Positions 2,371 through 61,146 of a DNA stretch of 64,000 nt are shown piece after piece. Position numbers and translations under genes: made by a program. The notes under the pieces are model-generated. The model saw only the letters and a program-made list of their open reading frames with translations. It was not told the origin of the DNA and searched no databases. Position 1 is the stretch's first letter. Each line of letters starts with the position of its first letter. The stretch lies in contig CP099854.1 in the NCBI GenBank assembly GCA_030062745.1, forward strand, positions 11,124,014-11,188,013, read 5' to 3'. This DNA comes from Capitulum mitella. Lineage: Eukaryota > Arthropoda > Thecostraca > Pollicipedomorpha > Pollicipedidae.

Positions 2371-2700
2371 AGACGGTGGAACAGACGGGCATTTTCGTGA
2401 CTGTCTGTCTGTCTGTCAAAGGAGGATGGAACAGTCGGACGGGTCTGTGACTGTCTGTCTGTCTGTCGTCGTCGGAGGAGGAGGGTGGAACAGTCTGGTG
2501 GCACTGTGACTGTTTATCTGTCTGTCTGTCAGAGGAGCGTGCGACAGTCGGGCGGCTCTGTTACTGTCTGTCAGAGGAGTGCGGAACAGTGGGACGGCTC
2601 TGTAAATGTCTGTCTGCCAGATGAGGGTGGAACAGTCGGGTGGCTCTGTCACTCTTTGTCTGTCTGTCAGAGGAGGGTGGAACAGTCGGGCGGCACCGTG
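2371..2700 (+). repeat. Minisatellite made of splice acceptor plus exon start
   Basis: About six to seven diverged copies of a 42-59 bp unit. Each has a (CTGT)n tract, a CAG or its remnant, then AGGAGGGTGGAACAGTCGG and a short tail. The last copy is the real acceptor and first codons of PPM1K exon A, so the exon edge itself is the repeat unit. Unit starts are near 2401, 2451, 2510, 2564, 2606 and 2652. Copy divergence shows the array is not recent. Confidence 0.85.
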
Positions 2701-2820
2701 GCGGTGGACGAACACGGCAGACACATGGTGAACGGCCGTCTGGCTATGACGCGCAGCATCGGTGACCTGCACCTGAAGAAGGCCGGCGTGACTGCGTTCC
2801 CCGACACACGGTCACTGGAG
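2671..2820 (+). CDS. PPM1K: PPM1K-like PP2C phosphatase, internal exon A
   Basis: This 50-codon exon encodes part of the PP2C (PPM) catalytic domain. It contains HMVNGRLAMTRSIGD, the strongly conserved PP2C motif, which matches the mitochondrial phosphatase PPM1K closely. In the known family, PPM1K acts in the mitochondrial matrix and dephosphorylates the E1-alpha subunit of branched-chain 2-oxoacid dehydrogenase, which activates valine, leucine and isoleucine breakdown. The acceptor is CTGTCTGTCAG before AGGAGG; the donor is CTGGAG followed by GTCAGT. It joins exon B in phase 0 across the LE-VK junction. The start is the last of several duplicated acceptors, so an upstream one at 2533 or 2575 could also be used in frame. 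The 5' exons, with the first metal-binding motif, are not in the window. Confidence 0.9.
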
Positions 2821-5800
2821 GTCAGTTTGGCTCGCCGGCGCCGGCTCAAGGCCACTAGGGGTCACTTAAGGTTACCAGGGCCGTGCTTCGTGTAAAATAG
2901 GCCTGCCATCACTCTTGCGTTGGTTGTATAACTGGCACTTTTTATGCTTGCCAGTGGCTGATCCCATTGACAAAGGCAGATCAGGTTGTGCCGAAATATT
3001 CGTGTTCTTTATGGCATCAGCGCCATTATACTCACGTATACTCCGCAAAAAGGTTAATCATCAGCAACTGAGCACCAGTTTCGTTCCAGATTCCTATGAA
3101 CTCCAATATTCTGGGATAAAAAAAATCGCATTGGCAGAGGTTTTTGGCGAAATTCACAACATTACGTCCCCATGAAAGTCGCACGCTTTCTAAAGTCTTT
3201 TCAGACGCTTCCTGTACGATGGAGTGTCTAGAGTATCAGCAATTGGTTTACCTTTTTATAGCAGTATACCTTTGCGTCTACCTTGTACTTTAGTTATTAC
3301 GAAGGCGTGGTGCGTCCTTCCTGTGCCTGTGCAGCTGACGGAAGAAGAGCTTCTCGACGCTGGCGGCAGGCTAAAGCGGCTAAACCCAACCTCACGGCGC
3401 GAAGAAACAAAAACAATGCAAGCGGACAGACAGACGGAGACAGAGAGGGGGCGGCAGGGATGGAAGCAGCATGGAGAGGCAGAGAGTCAGGAGGCGGTAG
3501 AGGCGACTCAGAAGTCCAGTGCTTGTACGTTAAAGGCAACCGTCAGTGCCGGCTCGGAGAGCTGGCAGTGAGTTATGTCCGGCGTTCGGCATTGGTTGCC
3601 AGTGGTGTTGGAGAGAGGCAGCAGCGTCGGTGTGGTCGCCGTGGTGCGCTCTTCAGGCTGGTGGCGTGCACCCTGTCGGAGCTTCACACTCTGCGGCCTC
3701 TGGAGTCAGACTGTTTATTACGTCGGCGGTCAAGCCCTCGCAGATTAAGTTGCCATATGGGGCGGGAAAATGGCCGCGCCTCAATAAGCAAAGGAAGCAG
3801 TAACAGTAACAACATAACAGCTGTGAAGGACACCGGCCAGTCGTGAAGACGTGCTGTCGAGGAAAGGCCCGCTGGGGGTCAGACCGTCCACCACCGGTCC
3901 GCAGTCTGCGGTGTAACGACGCTTTACTGGCGTCTGCAGCGGGCTACGCCGAGCAGGCTGAGGGTAGATCGTCGGACCTTTGGCCGGCTTAGAGTCGCCT
4001 TGTCGCGATGATGCTCAGAAGGAGGTTGATTGGCTATTGCGGCTTGGGGGCGCACCGACTTCAAGGTTCTTCGGCGCCCATTTAGGAGAAGAAGAAGCAT
4101 GTAGGGTGGCGGGATCCACTGCGATGTGTGTAGGTCTTCGAAGTGTACGGCTCGGTGCCATTGGCAGACCTGATATATCAAGCCGGATTCGAATCTGAAT
4201 CGTTTCCGGGCTCGTGAGCTTAGTCGTTAGCTCAGCCAGAGATTCAGGTATATATGGAGAAGGCGTTGAAGTAACACGTCTTCTTTGACCTATCTTGGGT
4301 GACATCAGTCGACCTGACGTAGTTTGCCTGTGTTTCTAGTCATCTGCGTTCAGGCCCCAACCCTCCTCGTGCGTCATGTACGGAATGTTGCGTCTTCAAC
4401 GTCTGAGCTCGGTTGATCGACCTAGGTCACTTGTGTATCAAGTGAGGTACAATCAGTGTGTAAAATAACACTCCACCAGGTTTCGTTTAGACCAGATGAA
4501 CACATCTGATACAGGTTGGGTGTCGTTCCCATCACATGGGATGTCGGTTGACCTCGATGGACGTGACCCAGGCTACCTGTCCCTTTGGATTGTGATGTTA
4601 TCGCACAGGAGAACTCCCTACAGTGTGTTGTAGCTGGCCGGCCAGCAGCAGCTATTCCGTACGCAACACAATGACCGCCCCACGGCTCTGCACGCGGGCG
4701 GCCGTCCGTCGCCCACTATGGCTCGGCCGCACGACCGACCTCCCGGCTTCATCAAGCTTGAGTGAAATATTCGAGGACCCGTTTTAAGGCTTATAGAAAC
4801 AAAAATGCGATAGGCGTACATCAGAAGATAGACCAAATTTTGAGTGTGACATCATCACAGCAAAATATATAACGAAAAGCATGAGGGGTGGATAATTTCC
4901 TCTCCCTCGCCAGTGTTTATGTTAACCTTCGTGCAACTGAAAGAACTTTATTTCCTCTCCCTTTCCGGTTTGTTGTTCCGTGCAAAACTTGTGAACGAGA
5001 AAAGCTAGCGGTCCAAAGTTCCCAGCGTCTTTACCCGAACAGCACGAGACACCCCTTGGACAAAAAGACCATGTCACCAGGCATCAGACCATTGACTCGC
5101 TTATCGAGTACCGTAGTAGAACTTCGGTGTATTTCCTTCCCTTTGGACAAAGCTTACAAGAAGCTTGCCAGGGATGGCACAAAGATCAAGTATCAAGTCG
5201 CTCAGATTACAAGTCGTAAGCGACCTAAAGGTGGGGCCACTGACTGCCATTTGGTACCTCGCTTTGGGCCAATTTGGCCTCTTCTATAGAGATGCAGATT
5301 TATCTCTAACGACAAGTGTATTGCAGATACTGAGAAGGAAATGACATTTCTGAGCTGCCCATGAAATTCTATACTAAACACGTAAAAAGCAAAAGTCAAC
5401 CAATGGCGTGTGGAAAATGTGATTTTCCATTGCAAAATAAGTTCATGTGATGGTGCGTATGGCCAGTTCCGACCGTTCTTGCGCTGTTAATGTATTTGTA
5501 GAACAGTCGGCAAATAGCTGTCAAAACTGGGACTTTGACCTGACTCTTGATGCCACCGGGAACTATGAATTCAGCAGCTGTGGAGTACCTTGCGCTTCAT
5601 GGTGTTGGGTTATGCTTGGTCGTGTAATCATCGAATGCGAACCATTCGGTCTTTAGATAGGACGCGGGGGAAAACTCCTTTCCGTCCCAGTAACTCAAGG
5701 ATGGTGAAATACACCAAGCAGTGCGTGGTCAGATGTGATCATTTCCCTATTTTAGGAAGTGCCTGTAGCAAAATTGCCGTACAGTGAGCCCCATGAGAGC

Positions 5801-6832
5801 TTAACGACCACTTCAGTCCTTCAAATAGCAGTGAAACATGGGTCATTCTTTAAACCCTCATTTCCTCTAATAAATGTATTTTGGTATAGTTCAGTTGTGG
5901 AGCAGACGTCTTTTGTAACGTGTCTTTCTGATGCGACGATGTTTTTTTCTGCAAATTGCGTATGTTTATTAAAAATGTGCACAGAAAATATTAATAAATA
6001 TTTAGGCCGTAAATCACATGCCTAAACGGCTGCCTTCAACAGCAGATGGATTCATATCAGCCTAGAAGAATGTGAGCGGAAAATTGCAGGTGCTTAACCA
6101 AAACAAAAAGGGAAAAAATACGTTCCACTACCGAATTCGTTACTTCTGCTAAAACCGCATGGCTTCCAATCAGATAAAGATGTTTTGTCGCGACAAAAAA
6201 GATTGTGTTACCAAAATGGCCAGTCGTAACCAAAAAGGCCAGCTGGTGCCAGAACTGATGAAGATATAACCAAGAACGATATTTTTACAAGAAATGACTG
6301 AAGTCACGAAATATGCCGATGCTCGCTAAGAAACGGGTTTACTGTTTGGTACAGAGCATGCTCTTTGAATATGCCTTAAACGTTTAGTGCGTAAAAGATT
6401 GCATTGCTGTTTAGGAGTTCAGACTGCACTGAAACTGGATGAAACTGCAAAAGTAATTTTCGTCTTTAATTATGGAAAATAGTTTTGAGGACCGGAGCTG
6501 GCAGCCTCAGATCCCGTCGCGCGGTTTCCTCTGCCGTATCCTCTGAATACGACAGAAACGCGTGTCTCATTGTAAACCCTGACGAGGACAAAGACCCGTT
6601 TTGCGTTAAGGCACTGTTCACGTTTCAGTTGATTCAGGTGGGTGCGCCCCCTGATCGGATAAGGCAGCGCCTACCCCGGTCAGGATCGACTCGGGTGCAG
6701 CACGAGTGTATTCCGCAGTCCATCGGCGTTCAAGCCCATGTTCGGATGCCAGACATGATGCTCTTTCATGGTGCTGCATGGAAAGGAAGTGCTTGAAAAA
6801 CGTGTCTGACTCCGTGCCGCCCCTGACCTCAG
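2821..6832 (+). other. PPM1K intron between exons A and B
   Basis: About 4 kb, bounded by the donor GTCAGT at 2821 and the acceptor CCTGACCTCAG ending at 6832. The exons on either side join in frame without missing residues compared with PPM1K, so no coding exon is needed here. I see no recognisable gene, RNA or complete transposon. The open frames around 3224-3846 and 4888-5289 have no family resemblance. Confidence 0.7.
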
Positions 6833-6967
6833 GTCAAGCACGGACGGGACGCCTTCCTGGTGCTCACCTCCGACGGCATCAACCACGTGATGACGGACCA
6901 GGAGATCTGTGACGTCATCAATAATAGCCGCACCCCGGCGGAGGGTGCCGCCCAGCTAACAGACCAG
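6833..6967 (+). CDS. PPM1K: PPM1K-like PP2C phosphatase, internal exon B
   Basis: Exactly 45 codons in phase 0 on both sides. The reading includes DAFLVLTSDGINHVMTDQEI, which corresponds to the PP2C segment FLVLTTDGIN of PPM1K. The Asp of the SDG motif is one of the metal-coordinating residues of PP2C enzymes and is present. The acceptor is TGACCTCAG and the donor is CAG followed by GTGAGC. Directly after the donor comes a 44-bp minisatellite whose units repeat the donor. The end of the exon (AACAGACCAG) is echoed in the units as CACCGACCAG. Identification is firm because the three exons align in order with one family. Confidence 0.93.
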
Positions 6968-7361
6968 GTGAGCACTCATTGGAGAGCACCATGAGATATC
7001 TCACCGACCGAGTGAGTACGCAGTGAAGAGCACTGAGCGATATCTCACCGACCATCCGATGGCATCCAGTGGGGGCACCGTGAGATATCTCACCGATCAG
7101 GGGAGCGCCCAGTGGGAGCACCGTGAGACGTCCCACCAACCAGGTGAGCATTCAGTGAAGGGCATCGTACGATATCTCACCGACCTGATAACCATTCAGT
7201 GGAGATTACAGTGTGATAGTCACCGACCAAGTGAGCACTCGGTGGAGAGCACAGTGCGATATATCACCGATCAGGTGAGCTCTCGTTGGAGAGCACCATG
7301 TGATGTCTCACCGACAAAGTGAACACTCGGTAGAGCACCGCGTGATAGCCACCGGTCATAT
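6968..7361 (+). repeat. 44-bp minisatellite made of the exon B splice donor
   Basis: Nine diverged units of about 41-45 bp begin immediately at the exon B donor. A typical unit starts GTGAGCACTC, has GGAGAGCACCGTGAGATATC in the middle and ends TCACCGACCAG, so the unit junction recreates CAG plus GTGAGC. Several junctions keep a good donor (near 7143 and 7275), others have lost it. Reading past the true donor meets an in-frame TGA within the first unit. Confidence 0.85.
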
Positions 7362-7728
7362 AAATGGTTGTTTTTGGCACTTCACTGGTCAGATGAGTAC
7401 GAGAGCACGTTTTGATAACATTTTGAAACGGCGCAGACCATTTGCAGATGAGCGCTATCTTCTGTTGGGTGCCTTACAGACCGTGTAACAGCTCGTCGAG
7501 TAGTCCTTAGCGAATCACTGATGTGGTAAAAACTCGTTGAGAGGTCCTTTGTGGCAGGCCCCTAATCATTTGAGTGCTCAGTGGTCTGTGTTGTGCGTAT
7601 GTCTCCGACCGTTTTCGCACTCATTGATATTCCGATAAGATATCTGACGGGCTAGCGGGCCACTCTGTGTGCAATTTAATGCGCATTTTGTCATTTCTCG
7701 ACCACTCCGCGACGGGTGGCATTCATCT

Positions 7729-7801
7729 GTTTCCGTGGTGTAGTGGTTATCACATCCGCCTAACACGCGGAAGGTCCCCGGTTCGATCCCGGGCGGAAAC
7801 A
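7729..7801 (+). tRNA. tRNA-Val (anticodon AAC)
   Basis: A complete 73-nt cloverleaf with acceptor stem GTTTCCG/CGGAAAC, anticodon loop CTAACAC and T arm GGTTCGATCCC. It is near-identical to the genes at 1642 and 13908. It lies in the intron after exon B in the same orientation as the host gene. Its flanks differ from those of the other copies, so only the tRNA itself is shared with them. Confidence 0.93.
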
Positions 7802-9722
7802 GGTATATTGCCTCCACGGAACGGAGGCTGATATACCTTTGCTATGTGATGTAACAGTGGCGTATGTGGTGCGGGACAGTGTGTCCTTCACGTGTTGTCA
7901 CGTGTTGTGCCGTGTCGTGTTTGGTTGCTGGCCAACAATTGGGTTACCCGTCTTGTAGAACCTGGTGATATGAACATGCCTAATGAGCTAGGACAGTGAA
8001 ACGTGGCCTATCGCGGTCACTGTGTAGTCACAAGGTCGCCTGGGTCGCATCTTTTGACCCTGTGAGATGGACGAGAACGTGCGCGACTTACATCAGCAGG
8101 TGTCCTCGGTAACGAAACACCCGAAGAGCCGTCGTTATGATGAGATTGCGGCTACACATGAACACGTTTGCCGACAAATCTGGAGGATTTACGTGGTCAC
8201 GCATCTGGCAAACACACGGCCCGCCTAGCGGCGGAAAGCGTTACTGCCGGCGGCCAGCTGATGGCGCTGGTGATGGGTGAAATCGTATATCAGGGTCGCA
8301 AAATGGGAAACGCGCAGTCGGGCTGGAAACGGTTCCTATATTTAACAAATGGAGTTCGGGATATTTTTTGGCGAAGTCGTTAAATGTATAAGTGAAGTAA
8401 AGTAAAAACACAGGGTAAGCGGAAACTCACATGAAGCATATAGCTGAAGTTCTTCTTAAACTATTGCTGAATCTTTAAAGGACTTGAGCTTTGAACTTGT
8501 AAACACTTGGATTGGAGCACCGGTACTGGTTGAGAGTAGTAGTTTAGAGCATGCGATCGTCGCGGATTAGAGGCTTTCGATGCCCCAGTCTGCTTCATTG
8601 GCGGTGACAGTGCAGCTACTCGTGGAAAGGCGTCGCAGTCAGGGGGCCTTTTCCCAAGAAGAAAACAGATAATAATCGACAAATATGTTTGAAAAATATT
8701 TCTTGTTGGTGAAGGAGAACGTTAGTGGTCACATTTGATAGTATTTGAACTGCTTACCTGTGGCTTATGACCCACAGGGCGCGCATGCGGAAATCTCCAA
8801 ACGAGAGCATGGGTGGATTCCTCCTTTAGGAATCAGGGTCCCCTCGCTTTTTGTTTATCTTATTGCTGTCCTCATATATTTTGTCTACTGTATTGGATTT
8901 TATCACGCATGGGAGGAGCATGTGAAACCGTTTGTGTTTGTGTCTGGCGACCCAATGGTTACGGCCTGGTCGCTGTGATAGGGCGCTCCAGTCGGGGCGT
9001 TCCAGGGCAAACCGGCCGATCAGAAGGACAGTTTTACATCCTCATTTTTCTAGTTTGTATATAAATTGGTCCAAAGGGTTTTCTTGGGTGCTGAACATAG
9101 TTGTTCTACTTTCAGGCTCGTCCGACTTACGGTTTGGCAGTTGCCTCGGGAATTTTAGGTCGTTTCATGGTTAGTGCCGTCGTGGATAGAAAATAAACTA
9201 GATAAAATAAGTCATCGTGGAGTTCAAAATGACCAGTGAATTCCTTTTCCTCATTATTTTTGCCTTCCTCTCAATTCCAATCAATTAATCAGTCATTTAA
9301 GTACATGCTTGGTGACTTAAGGTCACTTGACGTAGTATGACCTTTTTTAAGTTTTTTTTTTCTAATGACTGATGGACAATAACAAGGAACTGTCGTGTGT
9401 GTGTGTGTGTGTGCTTATGCGGGGATGTGTTGTGAGTGTTTGCTGTAAGTGCTCGGACTAAATCGCCAGACTGTTGAGCGACGCCGAATGTTCTCGGGAG
9501 TCAGTGTGTGTTGCACATGCCCGCATGCCGCCCGTCCGCCCCCCCCCCGCACGCCCGGCGCCTGCAGCGTCATTCCGTACGCCTACAGCCTGCGTACGTC
9601 AGGGAGGTGTTTTGCCCTGCGTACTAGCAACCATTTTTACAGTCCCCCATTTCCGACGAAGTAATTCATTTGTATTACGCAATCTGGGACGACCTTTTGC
9701 ATTTTCAGCTTCTAACGTAAGT

Positions 9723-10302
9723 TCATAAAGGACCAGGCTTTAGGGGGTTGTTTTTAAGTCGAGACTTAGACATGGTTAACTTTTGCAGTGTTATGACGAG
9801 TATCTCGATAGCGCTTAATTCTTGTAAGTTTGGAAAGAAGCATTCCTTTCCGTTGACATTCCATGACATCATCGATTTCTCAGTGAACATTTTACCTACG
9901 TTTCTTATAAACTCTTGGACGACTGCACAGTCCCAGTAGAAGTGTAATAATGTTTTTATCGAGGAAAAGCAAGATGTGTTCGAGCTGCACTGCGACCGGC
10001 CGAAGACGTGCAAAAATTTATTCGTTGAAACTATTCGAGATATCCGAAAATGAAATGCTTCCAAATATGTTTTTTCGTTATCATACTGACGTCACGCATG
10101 CTGTCCGTGTAGACGGTCCTGATGTCGCGTATCCATTTCCCGTCCAAACGTCTTTGCGTTAAACTGTAAACTGTATATATATACAGCATAGTCTAGTGTA
10201 TATATAGTATTGTAATATACTATATATACCATAATTAACCATAATAGTATATATACCATAATAGTATAAGTATATATGTATGCATATGTATTTATATTTG
10301 TA

Positions 10303-10371
<69 letters not shown>

Positions 10372-10375
10372 ATAA

Positions 10376-10445
<70 letters not shown>

Positions 10446-11250: not shown

Positions 11251-13907
11251 TGTGAGTTGGGCAAGGTGTTGATTATACGGACTAGCTTTGACAGATACAA
11301 CGACTTAATTATGGTGATTCACCTAATAAGCGTTAATTGCCAGGTTTTTCATTGCAACATTTACTTTTCGATAAGGGGCAGCTTCATTTCGACATTTCTT
11401 GTTGTGATGTCTTTGTTGTTTTTGTCGTAAGGTATACCTGGTATCTTTGTTTCATTGTCGAAAGTTCTTCCGAGTTCGTGATCAGTAGAGAAGGACAAGG
11501 GCTATTTCCGAACCTGTTTCTAGGGCTTAGGAGCAGAGCTAAAGCAAGGTCGTTGCCAGTTAAGTGCGCAAAAATAGATGCAGACGCGAAATGTGACAGG
11601 AATGTGCTTCAGACAAAGATGATGGCGTCACAACAGTTTTATTGCGCGCATTGAGCAGGCCGTGTTTCTGGGTCACGAGAGCGGGGACAACGTCATTACG
11701 TCACACTTTGAGACGTGAGACACATTGGTCATGCCGAAAACAGAGGCCGGGCAAAACGTCGTTATGGGTGTTAACTGACAACTACACAATGTCAAAGGCA
11801 GGTGACAATATGGACATGATGTTCAAAAGAGGAAAGCGATGGCAAAATCAGTCAACCCGACAAAAGTTGCTAAAGGCTGTTGAGTTTTATAGACATTATT
11901 CCGAGGCGCATCCAGGAGTGGATTCACCACCGGCGCATCGAAGGAGGGACCTAGCGCTCCAAACATTCTGCCGGGGTGTGCAAAAAAGGAATCGCAGAAG
12001 GACGAGTCTACCTGCCAAAAACTCGTGCATTTTTATTTCCGTCCCCCTTTCACAGAAATACAGGGTGTGACTCTGGCACTACTCCTCTTTTCGCAGTGGG
12101 AAACCAATCAAGAAATTGGGAAATATCCTGTGCAGAAGAGAAATAAGGAGTGGTATGCGTTCGTAAACCATGTATATGCCCAGAATATGCGAAAACTTCT
12201 TCGACGTTGCTGATGCCACCTATAGAGAGAATTACAACGTGGCAAATCCCTCTGACTTTGACGTATGCTTAACTAGGTAGGAACCTTCGAACGATGAACA
12301 GAGAACGAATGGACACATGAATACCTAAACACTATGCGTTAGACCTGTGTGGTTTCCGTTTATCACGATTTTCTGCCTTAGGACTTAGGGCGCAAAAGGT
12401 TTAAAAATACTCTTAATGTGTTTAAATTGACGGCTGCGGGCAAATTTGTTTCGAATTTTGGGAAACAAAAGCCGGATATGGATTCAGGACGTTGCACTAC
12501 ACCTACGGAAGCTCAGGTGGAAAGATTTTGTAAAAACGTATGGCAATGACATAACATTGTGAAAATGACATTTCATGTTAGTGCTTAAGAAAAAGGATAC
12601 GGGAAAAAAGTGAAAAAGTACATTTTATCGTTTAATTATCAGTTGAATTGGCCCAGCTGTGATTATTGCTTTACAAAAGTTAATATTTTCCTTGTCTTAT
12701 CCCGGCACCGCCTGAGGGATGTCAAATAGGGCACCCCTCAGTATTTCGTGAATAGCCTTTGAACCGTTAGAGGGAGCCCAACCAAGCTTTCAGTACCTGT
12801 TCATGAATCAGTTTTACATGTTTTGACATCAAAACAATTTCCCTGCTAGGTGAGGTCATGCAGATATGACGTCCTAAGTGAACCCTTGGATGCATGTTTT
12901 CGCCTCCTTGGAGGGTAGCGCATACTTCGTTTTTTATGATATTCGCGAATATAATTTGCGGATTGTTTGTGTTTACATAGAACACGGTCCCCAAGATGAT
13001 ATACAACCGTCACACGTTAACATTAGAGGTCATGCTAGGTCATTTGCGTAATGACAGTTGAACTGATTTTCATTATGGGGGATAGAAGTGGTGGCCGCTG
13101 ATCTTCCCCTTCGTTCAAGCTAGATAAGCAAATCTGTATAACCTTCTTAACGTATAACTGATTCCTTGAGCATTTTTGGATGCCACAGTATATTTTGGTA
13201 CACTATTGTGAATCCTAGACTGTTGATCTGAGACATGAAATTTTATGTGAGCCGTGTTTGGCGCCCCTTGGGACCAATTTTCATTACTATCGGAGAGATG
13301 AAGATGTTGGGCATTGGTCAGTCTACTGTGGAATGCCCTTGTCACCTCAAGTATAATGAAACCTGCTGTTTCATTGAGCGTACTTGGAAACCGTTGTTGT
13401 TATTGGTGGAGTCTACGGGCGAATCGAGGCCATTTGCGAAAAGGGATTATATCAATCCGTGGAAGCTAATCTGCTTCGAGATGTTGATTTTCCTCGGATT
13501 TCGTCCTCTTTGCTTCGTCATTTTGTAAAATTAACACGTATATAAACCAATTTTCGTTTGGAAAACAACCTACCTGCAATTTCCATCCAAAAAAGGGAGT
13601 AGTAAAAGACGTCGGTCTCCGGTTTCCAACGAAGCGGGGACATGACCCCGATGCCTCCCCCCTACCCACCAGTGAAAGAGTCTTTGTTTCTACAACTGCC
13701 ATTTGATGTGAGGGACGGCAAAGGGAAGGTTATTCGTCGACTTTACTTAAGCTCAGGTTTAAATAATTGTATAAGTTTATCGCTTCGTATCATTTCATTC
13801 ATGTTGACGTATTTGATCTTTGATCTGAATGTAGTTACTGTGATGGACTTACTTCTATTGCCAGATGAGCAGTACTCGTTGAGATCGCTGTCCATAAGCA
13901 TATATCT

Positions 13908-13980
13908 GTTTCCGTGGTGTAGTGGTTATCACATCCGCCTAACACGCGGAAGGTCCCCGGTTCGATCCCGGGCGGAAACA
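13908..13980 (+). tRNA. tRNA-Val (anticodon AAC)
   Basis: A complete 73-nt cloverleaf identical in its stems and anticodon loop (CTAACAC) to the copy at 7729. Its flanks resemble those of the damaged copy at 15160: GCCAGATGAGCAG and GATCGCTGTCC upstream, CAGAGTGTATTGT directly downstream. A segment of at least about 200 bp around the tRNA was therefore duplicated. Confidence 0.93.
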
Positions 13981-14165
13981 GAGTGTATTGTCTTCGGCCA
14001 TCCACCGTGCGTCCAGCCATGACGTTATGGATTAATAATAATGACAAAACAAGGTTCTACGACAGTTTCCGGACTGTCTGGGCTTTCTCGCGCGCTTTGG
14101 CGCGATGAACTCGGAATCACATCTGACATGACGCTGTCACTTGACCATTCTGAACTGTTCTGACA

Positions 14166-15530: not shown

Positions 15531-15665
15531 GCACTGTCATACTCGTCCGATGACAACATCTCCTGCCTTGTGGTGCCGTTCGGCTCGTGGGGAAAATTCA
15601 CCGACCGCACCAGCATCTTCGTCAGCTTCGGCAAGACCATGTCGGGCAGCAGCCGATTTAGCTAG
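15531..15665 (+). CDS. PPM1K: PPM1K-like PP2C phosphatase, terminal coding exon C
   Basis: Forty-four codons plus a TAG stop. It begins ALSYSSDDNISCLVVPFGSW and ends MSGSSRFS. This aligns with the PPM1K C-terminus, where the family has a DN motif, VVVPFGAWGK and a serine-rich end. The Asp in DDN is the second conserved metal ligand of this half of the domain. The acceptor is a good polypyrimidine stretch ending CTCCGCCGCAG and the phase is 0 with exon B. Unlike the other exons, no minisatellite lies on its acceptor. No clear AATAAA signal follows within the next kilobase, so the 3' UTR end is not placed. Confidence 0.92.
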   Translation, partial: ALSYSSDDNISCLVVPFGSWGKFTDRTSIFVSFGKTMSGSSRFS

Positions 15666-22747: not shown

Positions 22748-23653
22748 CTATTGCCCCGGCGAGCTCTCGTCGGCGGCGGGCGGCGCCGGCAGCTCAGGCA
22801 GCGCCGGCACGCCGGCCGCCAGGTACGGGGCGGCCAGTTCGAACCGGCGCTCCTCCTGCTTGTGGATCTTGGTGTGCGTCTTCAGGATGGACGACCGGGC
22901 GAAGCTCTTGCCGCAGATCTTGCAGTCGAACGGCCGCTCGCCGGTGTGGATGCGGCAGTGGTCCTTAAGGTGGTGCCGGAACTTGAACGCCTTGCTGCAC
23001 CACTCGCAGCGGAACGGCCGGTCGCCCTGGTGCGCGGCCGCGTGCTCCCGTAGCGCCGCCGCCGACTCGAAGGCGCGCGCGCACACCTTGCACGTGACGG
23101 GCGCGCCGTCGTCGGCCGGCGTCGGCGTCGTCGGCGCCGACCGCTCGCCGGACGGGCTGGCCGTCGGCGAGCCGCCGCCGCCGTCGACGGCCGACAGGTT
23201 GAGCGGGCCGCGAGAGTCGAACTCGCCGCCGGCGGTCGCGTGGCGGCCGCCGAGCAGCGGCATCATGCCGGCCAGCATGCCGCGGCCGGCGCCCAGGTCC
23301 GACAGGCCGACCAGCGGCGACAGGAAGCGGAGCTCGGAGCGCAGGCCGCCGGGCAGGTACTGCGGCAGCCGCAGGCCGGGCTCCGGCAGCGGCTCGGCCC
23401 AGAGCGGCCGCCGCTCGCGCGAGTCGTGCGGCGGCCAGCTGTGCGAGTGCACGGCCGGCGCGGCGGCCGCCTCCTCCGGCCGGGAGCGGGCCGGCGCGCG
23501 CACCACGGTGGCGCGCTCGGCGCCGGCCGCCGGCTCTTGCGGCGTCTGGCCGGGCGGCGCGTGAGAGCTGCCGTGGTGCGCCTGCAGCTGGTGCTGCGAC
23601 CGGAAGCTGAGCCCGCACTCCGGGCACAGGTAGGTGGTGCCGGCGGCGGCCCC
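22748..23653 (-). CDS. BTB-zinc finger transcription factor, terminal exon with four C2H2 fingers
   Basis: The exon encodes 301 residues and ends in TAG. Finger 1 (CPEC, residues about 10-31 of the exon) is followed by roughly 180 residues of low-complexity Ala/Gly/Pro/Ser-rich linker. Fingers 2-4 then follow in tandem near the C-terminus: CKVC-type, CEWC with KAFKFRHHLKDH, and CKIC with KSFARSSILKTH. They are joined by a TGERPF-type linker between fingers 3 and 4, and all zinc ligands are present. The acceptor on the minus strand is a strong pyrimidine tract ending CTCCGCCGACAG, which puts the exon start at 23653 in phase 0. The frame stays open 5' of this only by chance. Sequence-specific DNA binding in the nucleus is inferred. 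Linkage to the BTB exon rests on strand and phase. I cannot assign a named orthologue. Confidence 0.85.
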   Translation of the reverse strand, partial: GAAAGTTYLCPECGLSFRSQHQLQAHHGSSHAPPGQTPQEPAAGAERATVVRAPARSRPEEAAAAPAVHSHSWPPHDSRERRPLWAEPLPEPGLRLPQYLPGGLRSELRFLSPLVGLSDLGAGRGMLAGMMPLLGGRHATAGGEFDSRGPLNLSAVDGGGGSPTASPSGERSAPTTPTPADDGAPVTCKVCARAFESAAALREHAAAHQGDRPFRCEWCSKAFKFRHHLKDHCRIHTGERPFDCKICGKSFARSSILKTHTKIHKQEERRFELAAPYLAAGVPALPELPAPPAADESSPGQ

Positions 23654-52507: not shown

Positions 52508-52678
52508 CAGGGGCGTCGATTTCTGTAAATGATGGGGGGGGGGGGGCAGCCGAGGGTCCGACAACCTAATCTCTTCCCAAATGTGGGTTTCTCAAAGGAT
52601 TTAACCAACGCTATTTCGACCAATGGAAATTTATGAGTTTTTTGTTAATATTTATCAGATGAAAAACTGCATTTATCC

Positions 52679-52726
<48 letters not shown>

Positions 52727-52938
52727 ATATAATAGAAGAAAGATAGATGCATCCTTCTGGACCTTATTCTTTACTTCCTGCCTGTCCCTTATCTATTGTG
52801 GCCGTATTTTTCGTTATTACTCAGTTCCCTTTATAACCCGCAGAAAATACTGGGTGGGCCCAAACCAACATTGGGTAGGCCCAAATCAACATTGGGTTGG
52901 CCAGGGCCCTCTCAAAAGAATACAAATCGACACCCCTG
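52508..52938. mobile_element. hAT-like MITE, 431 bp
   Basis: The left end CAGGGGCGTCGATTTCTG and the right end, in reverse complement CAGGGGTGTCGATTTGTA, form terminal inverted repeats. The ends have the CAGGGG form common in hAT elements. The target-site duplication is not clear (CTGCCTAG against TTAGATAG). The interior holds a G12 run and a TA microsatellite, with no transposase. Confidence 0.6.
52679..52723. repeat. (TA)n microsatellite
   Basis: A pure TA tract inside the 431-bp MITE. Confidence 0.97.
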
Positions 52939-53872
52939 TTAGATAGCACCACATTTGGGAACGATCTGATAGACAAACCAACGTCTCATCTGCCTCCTTT
53001 ACTATAAACCATCCTTCCATACGAAGCGTCGATGGCGCATTGGACGAATCGAGTCGAGTCGATCGCATCGAGATGCCGAAACTGCGGAAAACTGTCGCCT
53101 GCAGTGGATCGAAAAATGCTGCAAGTCACCGGATGTCCACGGAACGTTTACGTGATACTGGGCCTCGGTTTCAAGCAAAGCAGACAAGCCATAGCCAGCG
53201 ACACCGGCGGTAACGCAAAGCTGGGCTGCGTTTGGCTAATTTTTGTGAGGACGCCTGACCACGCGAACATGCACAAAGCACTCACTCCTCACTGCTGATT
53301 AATTGATCCAAATTTTTCTGAAGTAACTTACCCCAAATGTTTGACATCTACCTTGGAAATGATGAACGGCGAAAATGTGTAGTTTGTATATTATTAGCGT
53401 ATCATGATTCACTGAGATTTCCTGCTTCAGTCCTGAAACAGCTGGTGTCAGTGTCACATCCTTTTTGGACGTCTAATGCCGAATCTTTGGAGGGCTCCTG
53501 CCCTGGCAGGTTTCCATTGTCAAACATTTGGCAGAGTGTGGTATGTATTTCCAACTCGTGATTCTATTCTACAACTCGAGCTTTGGCTGTAACATGTAAA
53601 TGGTTAGCTGTCCAAAGAAGGGGGAAACGTTTTCTTCCAACTAATCTTGGTTATCTCGCTCATCGTGAACCGTTCTCCTTCCCAAGGTCTGCCTCCGTTC
53701 AAAGACCTATGAGAAGTGGCGGTGTGTCGAGAGGCTCAACTGACGAAGCCCACGGTTGTCGAGGATATCGCAAGAGTGTTGCATGCACGGCTGAAACGCT
53801 GCTGCAAGCTGGGAATGTATACGCTTCGTGAGAAAACGGCGACATTGCGCCTATGGCGTGCAAATGGCGTTG

Positions 53873-53874
<2 letters not shown>

Positions 53875-53910
<36 letters not shown>
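53875..53910. repeat. (TA)n microsatellite
   Basis: A pure TA tract of about 18 units; the poly-Ile/Tyr frames here come from it. Confidence 0.97.
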
Positions 53911-53916
<6 letters not shown>

Positions 53917-54129
53917 GATGAACGTTGTGAAACTATTATTGGGATATATTCTGCGCTCGCTGCGTGAATCACTCATGGCATGTAACACCACTGTGCAGTT
54001 TTCGTAAGAGAATCAGTAGCCGGCAACTGCGCTGAAAAATCGCAGTTAGCCTCACCTGGGGTTCCTTTTCCATCGACCTCCATACACTTCTACGCAGCGC
54101 CACGGACTCGCAGCGAAATTCTTTTGCGT

Positions 54130-54470
54130 CTGCAGCGGTCGCGTGCTGAAGCCATTACGACCCCGGCCGCACCTGCGCCGTCCCCCCCCCCGTCGCTGCG
54201 GAAGGGGGTTAACGCGCGCACGCGCGGCGCCGCGGTGGCGGGCGGCGGCGCGCCACTTCCTGCAGCGGACGCTGCCATGTTGCAGGCCATGCGCGGGTCA
54301 ACGTCCGGCGCCAGTCAGCTGGCGGCTGGCGCGGCCGGCCCGCGTGACGTCATCGCGGCGCCGCCGGCTGGCCGGCGCGCTCTGGAGAGAGCTGGGGAGC
54401 CGGAGAGAGCATCGGAGCCACCCGGCGGGTCGCCGTTACGGGCGTGGAGGATCCCGTGCACTCTCGTGCC
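54130..54470. promoter_or_regulatory. CpG-rich block with a CRE site; possible promoter
   Basis: The block combines high CpG density with a perfect CRE palindrome TGACGTCA (54345-54352), an ETS-like CACTTCCTG (about 54251) and a GCCATGTTGCAGGCCATG segment. This mix is typical of CpG promoters. No transcript start can be fixed. It lies in the 33-kb intron, about 2.5 kb downstream (in the minus-strand sense) of the 21-codon exon, so an internal promoter is conceivable. Confidence 0.3.
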
Positions 54471-55129
54471 ATGCGATGCTTGTAGGCGTATTCAGTTCGC
54501 TAATGCTGGGGACGAATCCTCGTCCCTCCTCTACTGGAGAGAGAGAGAGAGGGGGGGGAGACAGAGATCAGATGCGGGTTGGAAAACCAGTGAATTGCGA
54601 TGTAACGAAATGCCAGGTAATCTTCGTCATTTCCAAAAGCAGCTAGGACATGGCACGACACTGGTGAAAAGTCTCACGGTTAGTACCTACACGACGAGCA
54701 CGTACAATTAGCTAGCAAGAGGAAAAAATGGAAACGAAAGAAAACTCCGGAGCGCAAAGCGAGGTAGCGCTTAACTCTTGTCAATCCCTGGCCGATGTTT
54801 CATTTGAGACCAGCTCAGGGACTCAGCCCCATGACCACGGAAAACCGCAAAGAGCTCCAGGCGCCAATGCCTATGCGAATCCCTCACGCTGAAAGCTCAG
54901 TTCGTTCTTGCACCGTTTTTCAAACTGCCACCATCTCCCTGCCCTGCGGCAGGTTTCCGGAGGAGCACAGCGCAACGGCCGGCCGCGGGCCCGGTGTTGC
55001 AGGGTGGCCGTGCACGTTCTAACGCGGCGCTCTGCATATTTACGTGCGAGGTAAATGTTTTGGCGCGCCGGCCGGCGGGTCGCAGCCGCGCGAAGCTCCT
55101 GTCTGGGTCGCCGGAGCGGCTGCCAGAAA

Positions 55130-55290
55130 CAGGGCTGCCGCCGAGCTGCCGCAGCCCAGCTTCGCCAGCAGAGCCGCCTCAGCCGTGCTGCCTCAGCCAG
55201 GCCTGCCCAGCCAAGCAGCCGACAACAGCCGACCAACAGCAGCCGAGCAGCCTCAGCCCAGGTGCCCCAGGAGGGCTGCCCTTGCCGAGC
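55130..55290. repeat. CAGCC-rich low-complexity tract
   Basis: Imperfect repeats of the type GCAGCCGAGCAGCCTCAGCC give Pro/Ser/Gln-rich frames on + and Ala/Leu/Gly-rich frames on -. No domain is recognisable. Confidence 0.6.
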
Positions 55291-56596
55291 TGCCTGAAGG
55301 GGCGAGCCGAAGGGAGGGAGGACAGTGTTGATCTGACAGACTGACGGATGAAGGGACAGAGGGACAGAGAGGGGACAGCCTCCAAAATCGGAGAGGGGAC
55401 CCATGACGGTCAGCGCAGCGACCCTTCAACATGAATCCTTGATTTTCGCCAAACATTCGATCCGTTTGCATTCCGGGCTTTGTCGAGGAACTTTTCCATA
55501 GCTGTGCGTGCTTTGACACGGCTGAGGCGGCGAGAACAACAGACGACGAGGGAATACAAACAGGCTGGAGCGTTCTCTGAGCCAAGAGCCCAACAAGCCT
55601 GCAGAGGCTACGGCGGCTCCGGCGCGCTTGTAGACCTAGCTCCGGCATGACGGCGCACGCCGACGAAAAAAAGCCGCCCTCACGCGGCTCGCGAACCATT
55701 TCCGCATTCGGACGCCGCTCTCAATTATCTCTCCAAACCAGTCCGCGTCGCAGTCGACCGGTGACTCCGCAGCTTTGGGCCCGCGTGCCGGCCGGGCCGG
55801 GCTGAGCTGCGCAGCCGCGCCGACCGCGGTCTCCCGGCGCGCCGCGCCGCCGCAGCCGCGAGCTTCTCCGCACCCCACCTCACGCCCGGTCTCTCCGCAG
55901 CCGCCAGCTGCCAGCCGGTCCACAGCGGGCTTCCACAGCCCGGCGAGGCACGGCCACGCCGGGCTGTGGAATTACTAAACTGGCTTTGGTTTACGTAGTG
56001 CTTCTGAAACGTCCACGTGAATTTTCGCAGTGGCAGAAGGCTTCACATGAAGTCCGTGGGCTTGATTTAGCCAGTCTCGCTTGCCTTCAAAATTCGTTGC
56101 GACGGATTTTTCCAGGTTTCATCCCGGTTAATTACTCCTCTGGACCTCGGAACGAGTCTTTCCAGATTGCATCCTGGTCAAGCGCCCTTCTTAAACTATT
56201 TGTAGAGTATTAGGCATCTTCAGCCTACAGACGTTACAGCCTGTCGTGCGGCGACAGGTGCTGTCGGTTCCGCCCGTACCACAGCGGGATGGAAAAGCTT
56301 CCTATTCCTGCAGACATGTCCAGCGCAGCCTCCGTTCGATACTCGCAGCTCGCTAGCCAGCCGGGAAAGACTTCAAAGAAGAAGATGGCAATGGCTCATA
56401 TTCGAGACTCATGTGAGACGCGGAGTAGTTTTGTCTCCGCAGAACTCAGTATAAGGGAAGAAAGGAAACATGGAATTCAGAGCAACGCCAGTAACAGGCA
56501 ACGACACTGATCGCATAGTCCGACATTAGGAAAACGCCTGTCCCTTGAATGGGACGTAGCGTAATAGATATAGCGCTTAAAACGGTGGGACGTGGG

Positions 56597-56853
56597 CACT
56601 GGCAGATCCAAGGGAGCCACCTCAGCCATGGCCCCCCAACCGCGACGAGGGGGGTCAAACGGCCATTCAGCCCCGTCCCCATACACATGGGTATTACTAC
56701 TCAATCAGGGTTTGGAGTTGCTGGACATTCCAAACCCAACTAGCGGCCAGCGTCTTTCACGTCCCCCCCCCCTCTCCCCGTCAACTCCTCGCTCACCTTC
56801 ATACCCAACAAACTAGTCTGGTTCCCCAAACGAAGCCGCTGGATCCGCCCCTG
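56597..56853. mobile_element. hAT-like MITE, 257 bp
   Basis: The left end CACTGGCAGATCCAAGG and the right end, in reverse complement CAGGGGCGGATCCAGC, form short inverted repeats. The 8-bp flanks GACGTGGG (56589-56596) and GATGCGGG (56854-56861) match at 6 of 8. It is non-coding and lies about 100 bp beyond the donor of the 21-codon exon of the BTB-ZF gene. Confidence 0.6.
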
Positions 56854-56869
56854 GATGCGGGCTTTGAAA

Positions 56870-56883
56870 ACGCCATCTAGTGC
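56870..56883 (-). promoter_or_regulatory. CTCF-like motif
   Basis: The minus strand reads GCACTAGATGGCGT, 12 of 14 against the CTCF core, in the intron just after the 21-codon exon. The evidence is motif only. Confidence 0.25.
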
Positions 56884-56949
56884 TAGTCGTTGGCGTCAGC
56901 CGCAGTTCGCCAGTCACCGCGACTCGAGTCACTATGGCCGGGTACTCAC

Positions 56950-57012
56950 CGACTCCAGGGCGTCCGTGGAGTTCTCCTCGGCCGACTCCGGCTCCAGCTT
57001 TGGCCGCTTTAT
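56950..57012 (-). CDS. BTB-zinc finger transcription factor, 21-codon linker exon
   Basis: The exon has 63 nt, phase 0 on both sides. It begins IKRPKLEPESAEENS and ends TDALES, a charged linker of the kind found between the BTB domain and the fingers of broad/tramtrack-type factors. KRPK could serve as a nuclear localisation signal. The donor is TCG followed by GTGAGT; the acceptor is GACTCGCTCGTCAG. A five-unit minisatellite abuts the acceptor and duplicates it. Phase fits between the 57596-57804 exon and the zinc-finger exon. It is short, so the call depends on splice sites, phase and neighbours. Confidence 0.7.
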
Positions 57013-57277
57013 CTGACGAGCGAGTCAAAGGCGTCAGACAGGGCCTCTCAGTAACGGTCTGACTCTGCCGAGCGAGTCAAAGGCGTCAGACAGGGCCTCT
57101 CAGTAACGGTCTGACTCTGCCGAGCGAGTCAAAGGCGTCAGACAGGGCCTCCCAATATCGGCCTGACTCTGCCGAGCGAGTCAAAGGCGTCAGACAGGGC
57201 CTCTCAGTAACGGTCTGACTCTGCCGAGCGAGTCAAAGGAATCAGACAGGGCCTCTCAGTGCCGGCCTGACTCGCTC
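57013..57277 (-). repeat. 52-bp minisatellite carrying copies of the splice acceptor
   Basis: Five near-identical units of 52 bp, with starts on + at 57018, 57070, 57122, 57174 and 57226. On the minus strand each unit has CCCTGTCTGACGCCTTTGAC, then TCGCTCGGCAG. The last unit ends TCGCTCGTCAG, the true acceptor of the 21-codon exon. Units differ by only a few bases, so the array is younger than the others. Confidence 0.9.
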
Positions 57278-57595
57278 TCTACGCTTCATAATGCCTGGAC
57301 ATCACAAAATGTGGACCACCTGGCTTACTTTCGGAGCAGAGTTGTCCTGAGCCCCAGCCCTGTTCACAGATCCAGGCCATCGAAACGTCCTTGAGTTTCT
57401 GCCAGTTGTGAATGTCGCGTACGCGAAGTGCCAAAACGTGGGAACTGCAAGTAAGTACCTCCAGCACATTCGGCTTCAACACAGGCGGACAAAAGGCGCG
57501 CTACTACGCAGTGTCATCCCCTCATTAAGCCCTCTTCGTCTAACGCAGTTTTTCCTGTTTTCTTCTTCCACAACTGCCCCGCCGGTCGGCCTCAC

Positions 57596-57804
57596 CACAG
57601 TGCTGTCGTCTCCGTTGCTGGCGTGCGGCGTCGGCAGCCCGCCGGAGGGGGGTCCGTCGGAGAGGGGCGGGCCCCTGTCACCGCCCCCCTCGCCACCAGA
57701 GTCGAACGGCTCGGGTTTGGACCGCTTCAGGCCGTCCAACTCCTGCTGCGGCGGTGGTGGTTCGCGGCTGATATTGCCCACCACCGGCCGCGACCCGGTC
57801 AGAC
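57596..57804 (-). CDS. BTB-zinc finger transcription factor, linker exon following the BTB domain
   Basis: The exon has 209 nt. Its first two bases complete a Gly codon begun by the BTB exon, giving MIRG-LTGSRPVVGN across the junction. The family commonly has (I/V)KGLT at this place. Then comes REPPPPQQELDGLKRSKPEP and a Gly/Pro/Ser-rich tail ending DDSTV. The donor is GTG followed by GTGAGG and the acceptor is CTGTGTGACCCCAG. It ends in phase 0, as the next exons need. The first 12 or so codons belong to a repeat unit duplicated upstream. This is a flexible linker between the BTB domain and the fingers, without its own fold. Confidence 0.8.
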
Positions 57805-57972
57805 CTGGGGTCACACAGGTCACAGAGGTCACAAGAAGGTCAGATACCGCCCTCCACCGGGTGCGACCCGGCCAGACCTGAGTCACACAGGCCACAGAGA
57901 TCACACCAAGGTCAGACACCGCCCACCACCGTCCGCGGTCTGGTTGGGCCTGGGGTCACGCAGGCCACAGAG
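57769..57972 (-). repeat. ~72-bp minisatellite of acceptor plus exon start
   Basis: Three tandem copies of 72-73 bp cover the acceptor and first ~36 nt of the linker exon. On the minus strand each has CTGTGGCCTGTGTGAC(CCC/T)CAG, then (G)TCTGACCGGGTC and CCGGTGGTGGGC. Acceptor-like CAGs lie at exon positions 57804 (true), 57877 and 57949. A fourth, damaged copy lies at about 59766-59845 beyond the foldback element. Confidence 0.85.
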
Positions 57973-59765
57973 GGTTCATTCCATGTCAAATCGCACAAGG
58001 ATTGACCTGACCCGCTTCGATTTTGATGAAATTTGATACGCGCTTAGAACCCATCGGAAAAAAATTGCCAGACATGAATTTTTAACCCGGGGTGACCGCC
58101 GAGGTCAAAGCCACAGGCCACGAGAGGTCACCGATTTTTACAGATATTGCGTGATTAAAATGCCCATAACTCGGTGACTGGCTTTCACAGAAAGATACGA
58201 TTAGGTGCATTTGGAAAAGAAATATTCCAGCTTTCAAATTTAAGTTTAGTTTTTCGGTGGCTTGAGGATCACTTTTGACCTGAGCAGGTCACATGGAACA
58301 TTTTCGGTTTAACCATGTTTGTCCGCCGTGATCATCGCGAAAATATAGCGCGCTATGTTCCCATATATTTGCAATCAGTACACAAAAAACATTTCCGGGC
58401 CAATCGAAACTTTTTCAAATGCTTAAATTTACCGTCGCCAAGTCGCGCTTGAGAAATATGCCGAGGGTACCTGACGAATATTGATTTAGTGCACTTTGTT
58501 TGTCCCACTGTTCTATCAATGCTCTTCGTGTCTGCCACACATCAGGTTAGTTTTGACTCGCTTGACACGAAAGGTCAAAGGTGAACACCCCATCACCAAT
58601 CGACCCCTGCCATCCAGATCTGACATGGGACAATCTTAGCCGAGCATCGGGGTCCATTTAAGGTTAGCTGAGGCCATTGGCCTCTGATCTCGATTGACCC
58701 AGGGGAATTTTTAGGCCACGGATCATGCGTGGCTTTTAAGGGCACTGATTCCAAATTTCACACATTGTTCACGCGTCGGAGTTTGCACGTATCAAAGATT
58801 CCACGTCAGCTAGACGGCGTTGATTTTTTTTTCGTAATGACGTCATCCCTTGCACAAATGAAATGGCAGCTTGGTAGGGAAGCGGAGAGAAGTGACGAAT
58901 GAAACGCGTGCCAAAAAGACTGGAAAATTGACTTTCATCCAGGACGTAGAATCAACATAAATGATTCGACGCGATCAAAATGGATGTGAAATTCAAAACC
59001 AGTGCCTCAAACTCTACAAATGATCCGAGGCCAAAATAGGCAGTTCAAGGTCCAGCGATATCAGTGACTTCGGCTGGCCTTCCAAAGCACCCGATGCACG
59101 ACCTGGGTTATTCCAGTTGGCTGTAGGGCCTTAAACCATCCGACAGACTCACGTCCGTACAAACGTGAAGAACGGCTATCTCAGATCCGGATGGCAGGGG
59201 CCAGTTAATGGCGGGGCGTCATGATCTTTGAGCTTTCGGATCAATCATTTTGAAACTAAGCTTATGTGTAAAAGGCTCGCAAGACGACGTACACACCAAA
59301 CTGCAGCACAATCGAACATACGAAAGGCACGAAATGATCAATATTTGTCAGATGGCCTCAGGGAATATTTCTCAAGCACCACTTGTCAGCATTAGAGTCA
59401 AGATACCTGAAGCACGCTTATTGAAGATACTTTGGGACACATTGTGCTACCTTTTTACTGGGATCACGATGGACATGCATTATTAAAATCGTAAATGTTC
59501 CATTTGACCTAGTCAGGCCAAAGGCCATTCTCGGGTCGCCAAAAGCTAAACTTAATTATGACACCTGAAATATTTCGCTTTCGATTGGCGCTAATCGCAT
59601 CTTGACAACCTATCCCGAGTTACGGGGATTTGAATCATGCAAGGATCACTCAGGTCTAAAAATGTATGGCTAGCTATTTTCCGACAGGTACTATGAGTGT
59701 GACAAACTTCATCAAAATCGAAACGGGTCGGGTCAGTTCTTGTGCAGTTTGACTTAGAATGACCC
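57973..59765. mobile_element. Foldback element with long imperfect inverted repeats, ~1.8 kb
   Basis: The outer arms match over at least 85 bp (for example TTCGATTTTGATGAA in both). The similarity continues inward: a GGTCAAATGGAACATTT-like block (58290 against 59495) and the block CCCCTGCCATCC..ATCTGA (58604 against 59195) are again inverted partners. The arms are thus several hundred bp with a central unpaired part. No transposase frame is seen. It interrupts the ~72-bp array between its third and fourth copies. Confidence 0.75.
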
Positions 59766-59845
59766 AAAGGTCATAGGACGGTGAGACAGCGCCCACCGCC
59801 GGCCAGGACCCAGTCAGATCTAGCACCACAAACGTCAGATGGGTG
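59766..59845 (-). repeat. Outlying fourth copy of the ~72-bp array
   Basis: The minus strand reads ATCTGACTGGGTCCTGGCCG, then GCGGTGGGCGCTGTCT, close to the array copies at 57842-57972. It was separated from them by the foldback insertion. Confidence 0.7.
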
Positions 59846-61029
59846 GCAAAAAAAGTCAAACTATATTATGTCATACCATATAACACCGCCCATTAAGGCA
59901 GAATGAGCAGAAATTATTTGTTCGACGTATTAATGACCACGGCGAGTTGTGCAAAATCGAATGGCACCGCATCAACCGGTCACCAATAAAATGCGGGCAG
60001 ATCTACAGACGTACAAAGACGTACATCCCTCATTCTATCATATGGGACCTGCTCGCTCCATTTGTGGCTAACACTGGTTATCGCATAGTGCAATGCATGC
60101 ACATGAATACTAAGTACATGCACTAGGGAGCTGCTTGGGATTACTCGTCCGTCGCAGATCCCTGGCTCCTAAAGTCCACGCTATAATTAGATTCAGTTAC
60201 TGAAAGGTCATGGCCCGAGCATTTCCTTTTTAAATAAATAAAGGAACATTGAAGTTGGTTCGACCGTAGCTACGCCACTGTAAAGTTTAGAGACTTCCTG
60301 AGCGCCAATAGCCGCACATTTGAGGAGCACGGCTCATTTCCGGCCGGTCGGTCAGTGGGTCTTTCGTGGAGGTTTTTGACTGGCATGGTTCTTCCGCGTC
60401 GCTGACTCTCGGCCGGTCACTGCTGAGCACGGCGAAAAATCGCCGTCGCACGGCCTCGATCCGACGACCTCTCAGGCACCACGCAAACATCTCACGTTTT
60501 TGGGCTGCTGACAAGGGCAAGGCTAACATCGGCAGGGCCCTGAATCCCCCCGGCTTCCTTCGACGGAATCATGAATGCGCCCTTGATCATCCGTCCGTTC
60601 GCCTTTACGGTCATCATCTGACTGCCAGTTGGCAGTTACTGCGACCGGCTAACCGTTACCGTCGGCCCCTTGGGCTGTGGTTGTGTGATAGAATACTTAC
60701 CTCTGCGAATTCCTCGGGGTGAACTTTTATCCATGAATAGACATCGACGCCCCGGAACAAACCTGATAGAACCCCGGCCTACTTGCCACGTCAGCCCGTC
60801 GGTTTACGGCTAAAGGGGAGTGCTTATCTCTAACATTGAACCTTATCATAACAATGAATCTCTCGCTTCCTTCCTGTGGAAAAAGTCACCATGTCTGATC
60901 ATGAGTCACCAATCTGCGGGTCCGGCAAAACGATTTCTTTTCATGGCAAGTCCCTCAGTTTGTGGTCTTTTGGACAACTCACCTCAGATCAGCATCCCAG
61001 GCGATTTCTGGTCGCGGTGGATTACTCAC
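59846..61029 (-). other. BTB-ZF intron next to the BTB exon
   Basis: No coding exon is needed here because the BTB and linker exons join in phase. Overlapping frames on both strands at 60287-60722 have no family signature. Near the BTB exon two decayed copies of the BTB exon donor are visible. Confidence 0.6.
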
Positions 61030-61146
61030 CTCTGATCATGAGCGCCTCGGCGGTGGAGAACAATGAGTCCAAGTCGTTCTTCTCGACCTCCACCTCGCCT
61101 TTGTACATGAACTCGACAATGCTGCGTAGCTCCGCGAATTTGACAT
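61030..61146 (-). CDS. BTB-zinc finger transcription factor, exon for the second half of the BTB domain
   Basis: The exon has 117 nt: 2 nt finishing an Asp codon, 38 full codons and 1 nt starting the next Gly. It begins VKFAELRSIVEFMYKGEVEV and ends LFSTAEALMIR. This is the conserved C-terminal half of the BTB/POZ domain of broad/tramtrack/lola-type arthropod factors (DVKF..L..iveFMYkGEV...L..l...AEaL.I.GL). The domain dimerises these nuclear factors. The acceptor is GTCGTTGGTTTTCAG and the donor AGAG followed by GTGAGT. The exon encoding the first half (the CLRWNNH-type start) is not found before 64000 and must lie further on. This identification is firm. Confidence 0.92.

Follow-up and report, generated by a model that had tools for sequence, protein, structure and literature searches.

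Minisatellites lie across exon-intron junctions of two genes of the barnacle Capitulum mitella, a PPM1K gene and a gene for a BTB zinc-finger (BTB-ZF) protein, in such a way that the repeat unit contains the splice site itself and the array ends in or at the exon. Both genes were found in a stretch of 64,000 bases, hereafter the window, at positions 11124014-11188013 of contig CP099854.1 (C16 in our coordinates), and the genome searched comprised 477 Mb in 16 contigs. In our reading, to which we give a probability of about 0.68, the arrays are minisatellites of the type called mirages in lancelets, mostly born in place, tolerated as a by-product of a repeat-rich genome and concentrated in PPM1K. 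The anatomy of the arrays, the uniqueness of three of their units, their recurrence elsewhere and their excess in PPM1K and BTB-ZF are documented below.

Arrays at exon edges in the window

Exon edges were placed by homology and reading phase (Table 1). Human PPM1K aligns with exons A and B over 94 residues, without a gap and across the A/B junction (2iq1, E 2e-25). The exon preceding A ends in GAGAAG/gtgaga, so that the product reads EK/RRVEQSGG, and RVEQSGG, the start of exon A, aligns with RIKKCGG of human PPM1K; we take EKERIKKCGG to be the human counterpart of the whole stretch. In the BTB-ZF gene the phases, by reading of the sequence, are consistent along the BTB, linker and 21-codon exons. 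The BTB domain shares 70% identity over 46 residues with a stretch of Drosophila lola (E 2e-16 in a search of the 144-kb region described below). A PDB search found no match at E <= 0.01 for the BTB, linker and 21-codon exons joined together and, for the BTB part by itself, a weak one to the BTB of Drosophila CG6765 (E 0.049). The initial annotation had counted eleven supported edges and overlooked the acceptor at the start of the last PPM1K exon; twelve are now known in the window.

Four of these edges had been described as carrying a tandem array whose unit includes the splice site, and all four arrays appear in the output of Tandem Repeats Finder, ending in or at the exon. The unit at exon A consists of a pyrimidine tract, cag and 24 nt of the exon start, and an AG stands at the splice position in four of the six aligned copies, counting the edge copy. 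At exon B the unit is made of 6 nt of exon end and 38 nt of intron, with GT intact in five of seven alignable extra copies, while CAG is kept in all four extra copies of the 21-codon array. The overlap with the exon is 24 nt for exon A, 6 for exon B, 29 for the linker and 1 for the 21-codon exon, and the last array is therefore practically intron only. A fifth case had been seen in two decayed echoes at the donor of the BTB exon. Echoes are present there, but they are weak: the best, at offset 47, has a score of 15, which 9.6% of window positions reach. The single echo at the exon A donor has the same score and by itself is not beyond chance.

Local repeats were scored at every position of the window, with thresholds of at least 20 and at least 15, and p-values were obtained by circular shift and under independence. 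At the higher threshold local repeats contain 4 of the 12 edges where 0.79 would be expected (p 0.018 by circular shift, 0.006 under independence), and at the lower one 6 of 12 where 1.15 would be (p 0.0024 and 0.0004). In a cruder ungapped test only 2 of the 12 edges ranked among the top 5% of positions (circular-shift p ~0.13), and the summed rank gave p ~0.01. Since the claim arose from the same sequence, all p-values from the window are optimistic.

Table 1. Arrays, exons and related features of the two genes. Positions count from the first base of the window; here and in the text a slash marks the exon-intron junction.
Feature	Position	Strand	Details
PPM1K exon 1 donor array	outside window		CTGCAG/gtgtgg; 31 bp x 2.2
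PPM1K exon 2 acceptor array	outside window		69 bp x 10
PPM1K exon 3 donor array	outside window		TCCG/gtcagt; 63 bp x 3
PPM1K exon A acceptor array	2375..2694	+	Tandem Repeats Finder, ~50 bp x 6.4
PPM1K exon A	2671..2820	+	phmmer match to 2iq1, PF00481; acceptor at 2671+
PPM1K exon A donor, weak single echo	2801..2883	+	40 bp downstream; score 15
PPM1K exon B	6833..6967	+	homology, Pfam scan, edge placement; donor at 6967+
PPM1K exon B donor array	6962..7354	+	Tandem Repeats Finder, 44 bp x 9.0
PPM1K last exon (ALSYSSDDNISCLVVPFGSWGKF...)	15531..15665	+	acceptor at 15531+, no repeat there
BTB-ZF C2H2 zinc-finger exon	22748..23653	-	PF00096, 4 stretches; acceptor without array
BTB-ZF 21-codon exon (IKRPKLEPESAEENSTDALES)	56950..57012	-	sequence and phase; acceptor at 57012-
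BTB-ZF 21-codon acceptor array	57012..57273	-	Tandem Repeats Finder, 52 bp x 5.0, 93% matches
BTB-ZF linker exon	57596..57804	-	acceptor at 57804-; phase fits RG/LTG after BTB exon
BTB-ZF linker acceptor array	57776..57972	-	Tandem Repeats Finder, 72 bp x 2.7
Foldback-like element, long inverted repeats	57973..59765	.	inverted matches 57973-58095 / 59646-59765 and two more pairs
Remnant of further linker-array unit beyond the element	59791..59837	-	47 bp, 76.6%, E 5e-7 (one-to-one comparison)
BTB-ZF BTB exon	61030..61146	-	PF00651 (E 1.1e-5)

The two genes beyond the window

Adding 40 kb on either side gave a region of 144 kb, in which the remaining exons were located. Over the whole genes, arrays straddle 5 of 12 edges in PPM1K (exon 1 donor, exon 2 acceptor, exon 3 donor, exon A acceptor and exon B donor) and 2 of 11 in BTB-ZF; donors and acceptors are both affected, and the exon part of the junction arrays amounts to 1 to 35 nt of coding sequence. 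One more array, with units of 25-34 bp, stops 19 nt short of the PPM1K exon 3 acceptor.

These counts were compared with a random placement that let an array extend at most 30 nt into coding sequence, which the real exon 2 array enters by 35. Five of the 11 PPM1K arrays straddle a junction, as against 0.18 by random placement (0 of 20,000 trials), and 2 of the 13 BTB-ZF arrays do so, as against 0.10 (p 0.0037). In the 5' part of PPM1K, which the initial annotation had not covered, the figures are 3 of 7 arrays against 0.31 expected (p 0.0023) under a null that allowed 40 nt of coding overlap. The introns of PPM1K are unusually full of arrays and the junction arrays are concentrated there. Local repeats with a score of at least 20 occupy 6.6% of the window and 9.9% of the 144-kb region.

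Junction arrays in other genes

The wider sample comprised 35 myosin and kinesin loci with 178 placed edges and 20 arrays. Its exons came from 68 of 86 myosin-head matches and 16 of 129 kinesin matches, with compact genes over-represented. Splice sites in it are predictions from the reading frame and a consensus matrix, supplemented in part by the phase of the exon next to them, and 8 of 186 edge positions were unplaceable (3/114, 2/40 and 3/32 by batch). One array that is mostly coding was excluded, as was a 37-bp array at the donor of locus L053, which falls below the 40-bp limit; unrecognised exons were treated as non-coding.

Three of the 178 edges lie in a Tandem Repeats Finder array (2/111, 1/38 and 0/29 by batch) and six in a local repeat with a score of at least 20 (3, 3 and 0). 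The edge rate of 1.7% is lower than the 3.5% of the 12 myosin stretches, coding sequence included, that such arrays cover. A myosin donor (TCCAG/gtgggc, 23 bp x 17) and a myosin acceptor (GCTCAG/GAGGAGTACGTG, 39 bp x 10) are beyond doubt, and the L053 donor, also of a myosin, is a short case (18 bp x 2.1). Junction arrays are present, then, in several unrelated genes, namely PPM1K, BTB-ZF and two myosins, and the recurrence of the pattern proposed in the initial annotation is upheld both by the two clear myosin cases and by the 5' part of PPM1K. In stretches taken blind to gene identity, an array covers 1 of 18 edges, a donor in an NDUFS7-like gene (18 bp x 2.1); this set consists of nine exons chosen by eye from the 45 shown of 56 coding-like candidates, two of its edges have poor splice scores, and the NDUFS7-like label was itself given by eye.

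Measured against random placement, 2 of the 20 myosin and kinesin arrays straddle a junction with 1.70 expected (p 0.51), and 6 of 20 straddle one or abut it within 20 nt with 2.86 expected (p 0.055). Among the 17 arrays with periods of at least 20, 2 straddle a junction (1.50 expected) and 4 straddle or abut one (2.55 expected, p 0.24). It had been supposed that junctions are preferred starting points for arrays throughout the genome, and this small sample gives that generalization no support. It offers no clear sign of a genome-wide preference; with so few arrays in the sample a moderate one could be missed.

Two explanations turn on these numbers. Junctions might be true hot spots, through a mutational bias (from repetitive pyrimidine tracts, microhomology at AG/GT or structures formed co-transcriptionally) or through selective retention. 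The excess in PPM1K and BTB-ZF, repeated in the part of PPM1K that had not been covered, is what such a cause would produce, and the count of straddling or abutting arrays in myosin and kinesin genes leans the same way; the straddling count itself fits chance there, the edge rate is below the array coverage, and we think a true hot spot rather unlikely. Alternatively, arrays may be so dense that some land on edges by coincidence. The repeat content of the window and of the 144-kb region agrees with this, as do the myosin and kinesin counts, but the PPM1K counts, those of the part first covered here included, are far from chance, and we regard coincidence as a very unlikely explanation.

Three myosin loci were recorded besides. 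The myosin-head match at G000:C1:14897776-14899626 covers profile positions 3-642 in a single open frame and is apparently intronless there. Four copies in a row of one myosin exon (profile ~377-436) lie at G000:C16:5450234-5453643, and three copies in a row of the same exon type (profile ~377-436) at C15:16425920-16428593. Such rows resemble the mutually exclusive exons of muscle myosin.

Origin of the repeat units

The five arrays at exon A, exon B, the linker, the 21-codon exon and exon 2 have no match to one another (blastn, 144-kb region). Four arrays were searched against the genome at the DNA level, in a search that ignores simple repeats and very common words, and those of exon 2, the linker and the 21-codon exon each match their own site only. 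A single transposon or satellite family was accordingly rejected as their source, in agreement with the initial annotation, which had called the units unrelated. The unit of the fourth array, that of exon A, differs in occurring at about ten further places, a dispersal that was invisible from the window. All of these places lie within 0.85 Mb, at C16 11.02-11.87 Mb. Two of them, at ~29 and ~32 kb on the upstream side of exon A, lack a copy of that exon beside them.

From these two places in particular it could be argued that the exon A array is a dispersed minisatellite which landed beside the exon and was not seeded there. Its unit, however, holds the start of exon A, in which coding sequence aligns with that of human PPM1K, and exon A is for this reason probably the older part; a landed minisatellite is decidedly unlikely. 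Because the unit includes this conserved coding sequence, we think that it arose at exon A and afterwards spread within the region.

The linker array has a more complex structure. Within it sits the foldback-like element of Table 1, 1.8 kb long and made up of inverted repeats over most of its length, and a remnant of a further array unit lies beyond the element. The array was split later by insertion of the element.

Splice sites in the extra copies

Of the 50 extra copies that could be aligned in nine arrays, 44 have the splice dinucleotide intact, where their identity to the edge copy predicts 40.0; in the exon 3 donor array neither of two does. There is consequently no clear sign of selection on the extra sites. 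Upstream of the acceptor the exon frame stays open for 249 nt in the exon 2 array, 270 in the exon A array and 153 in the linker array. It meets stops past the 249 nt in the exon 2 array and closes after 12 nt in the 21-codon array and after 15 nt in one myosin array, and at exon B the choice of a later donor would lead to a stop within the first unit. Nominal periods are divisible by three in four of the nine arrays.

These data bear on the idea that the copies serve as alternative splice sites or as optional segments in frame. The number of retained dinucleotides and the three long open frames would be in its favour. Yet retention is close to the neutral expectation, stops appear early or eventually in several arrays, unit lengths disregard the frame, and working sites seem highly improbable. 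No function is indicated for the extra sites, which presumably have none, and the exon-proximal site is probably the one used.

Tandem arrays are easily mis-assembled, and the arrays might for that reason be suspected as artefacts of assembly. The mean identity of the extra copies to the edge copy is 0.78-0.95 in eight of the nine arrays and 0.99 in the ninth; stuttered assembly does not easily give such divergence, and an artefact is scarcely credible.

Mode of formation and comparison with known systems

Under the reading we prefer, short segments across the exon-intron junction would have been duplicated in tandem, and the duplicates amplified, probably by slippage or unequal exchange, each array on its own. 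Selection would preserve a single intact copy at the end of the exon, and the remaining copies would be intronic; the arrays could persist in this way because one site per cluster is enough for splicing. They would be a by-product of the genome's abundance of tandem repeats, and densest in PPM1K.

Two observations weigh against this reading. The 5 of 11 straddling arrays of PPM1K exceed what a neutral by-product would give and leave room for a cause specific to junctions, and the exon A array is not confined to its junction, with its other places all on one contig. A related, tentative possibility is that in some genes of this arthropod lineage junctions have been amplified repeatedly and independently by junction-linked duplication, strongly at certain loci. 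If so, mirages would not be peculiar to lancelets, and such duplication might steadily feed intron sliding and the birth of new exons.

The kind of array is already known. Two reports on lancelets (PMC3087553, PMC3902484) describe mirages, that is, minisatellite-like tandem duplications across intron-exon boundaries, at donors and acceptors, in Adh3, the globin genes BflGb6 and BflGb9, troponin C and PGBD5. In these reports the units measure 10 to ~160 bp, many repeats retain AG or GT, and regular splicing is reported together with length instability. The arrays described here, seen in one assembly, likewise include exon and intron in the unit (exon A, exon B and the linker; 1 nt at the 21-codon exon), carry AG or GT in many of their repeats, not in all, and affect several unrelated genes. 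They differ in their arthropod host and in occupying five edges of one gene. Ordinary intronic minisatellites share their period, copy number, divergence and slippage-type anatomy, but have neither one end in coding sequence nor a unit bearing a splice site.

Two further papers present tandem duplication of segments with a proto-splice site as a way in which introns are gained, one for near intron pairs of Drosophila, where it gives rise to intron positions (PMC2891723), and one for potato RdRp (PMC4974935). Extra splice signals arise in a gene by tandem duplication in those cases, as they do here; in C. mitella existing junctions are multiplied, without a new intron shown. In the open-licence literature we found no barnacle report joining minisatellites with splice sites, and mirages in this sense in lancelets only. 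As far as that literature was searched, the arrays are new for this lineage.

Among the routes proposed by which introns arise or change position is tandem duplication over splice junctions. Fresh arrays in a second lineage, distant from lancelets, some of them with copies 93-99% alike, would make it possible to follow how splicing deals with rows of near-equal sites and to test whether junctions attract duplication. If the arrays are mostly a by-product, as the wider sample suggests, they still show that arrays straddling a junction can be tolerated.

Other genes and repeats

Five other long open reading frames of the window were scanned against Pfam, which gave no family in four and a single sub-threshold match in the fifth. 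Three tRNA-Val(AAC) genes were predicted by ARAGORN within 12.4 kb (window 1641-1715, 7728-7802 and 13907-13981), and a fourth tRNA-like stretch at 2178-2239 is the sole one listed by Rfam. Stretches resembling 1641-1715 recur in the upstream flank and perhaps represent a tRNA-derived repeat. Large arrays of a degenerate motif of 15-17 bp (such as GACGAACTTTTGCAC) flank the window on both sides, in L006, L007, L009 and L010 (e.g. L009:7908-8824 and L010:5240-6790). Upstream of PPM1K, 16 kb separate two coding-like stretches that match each other (L006:5195-5761 and L008:1410-1733), look C-type lectin-like by eye and form part of a local duplication.

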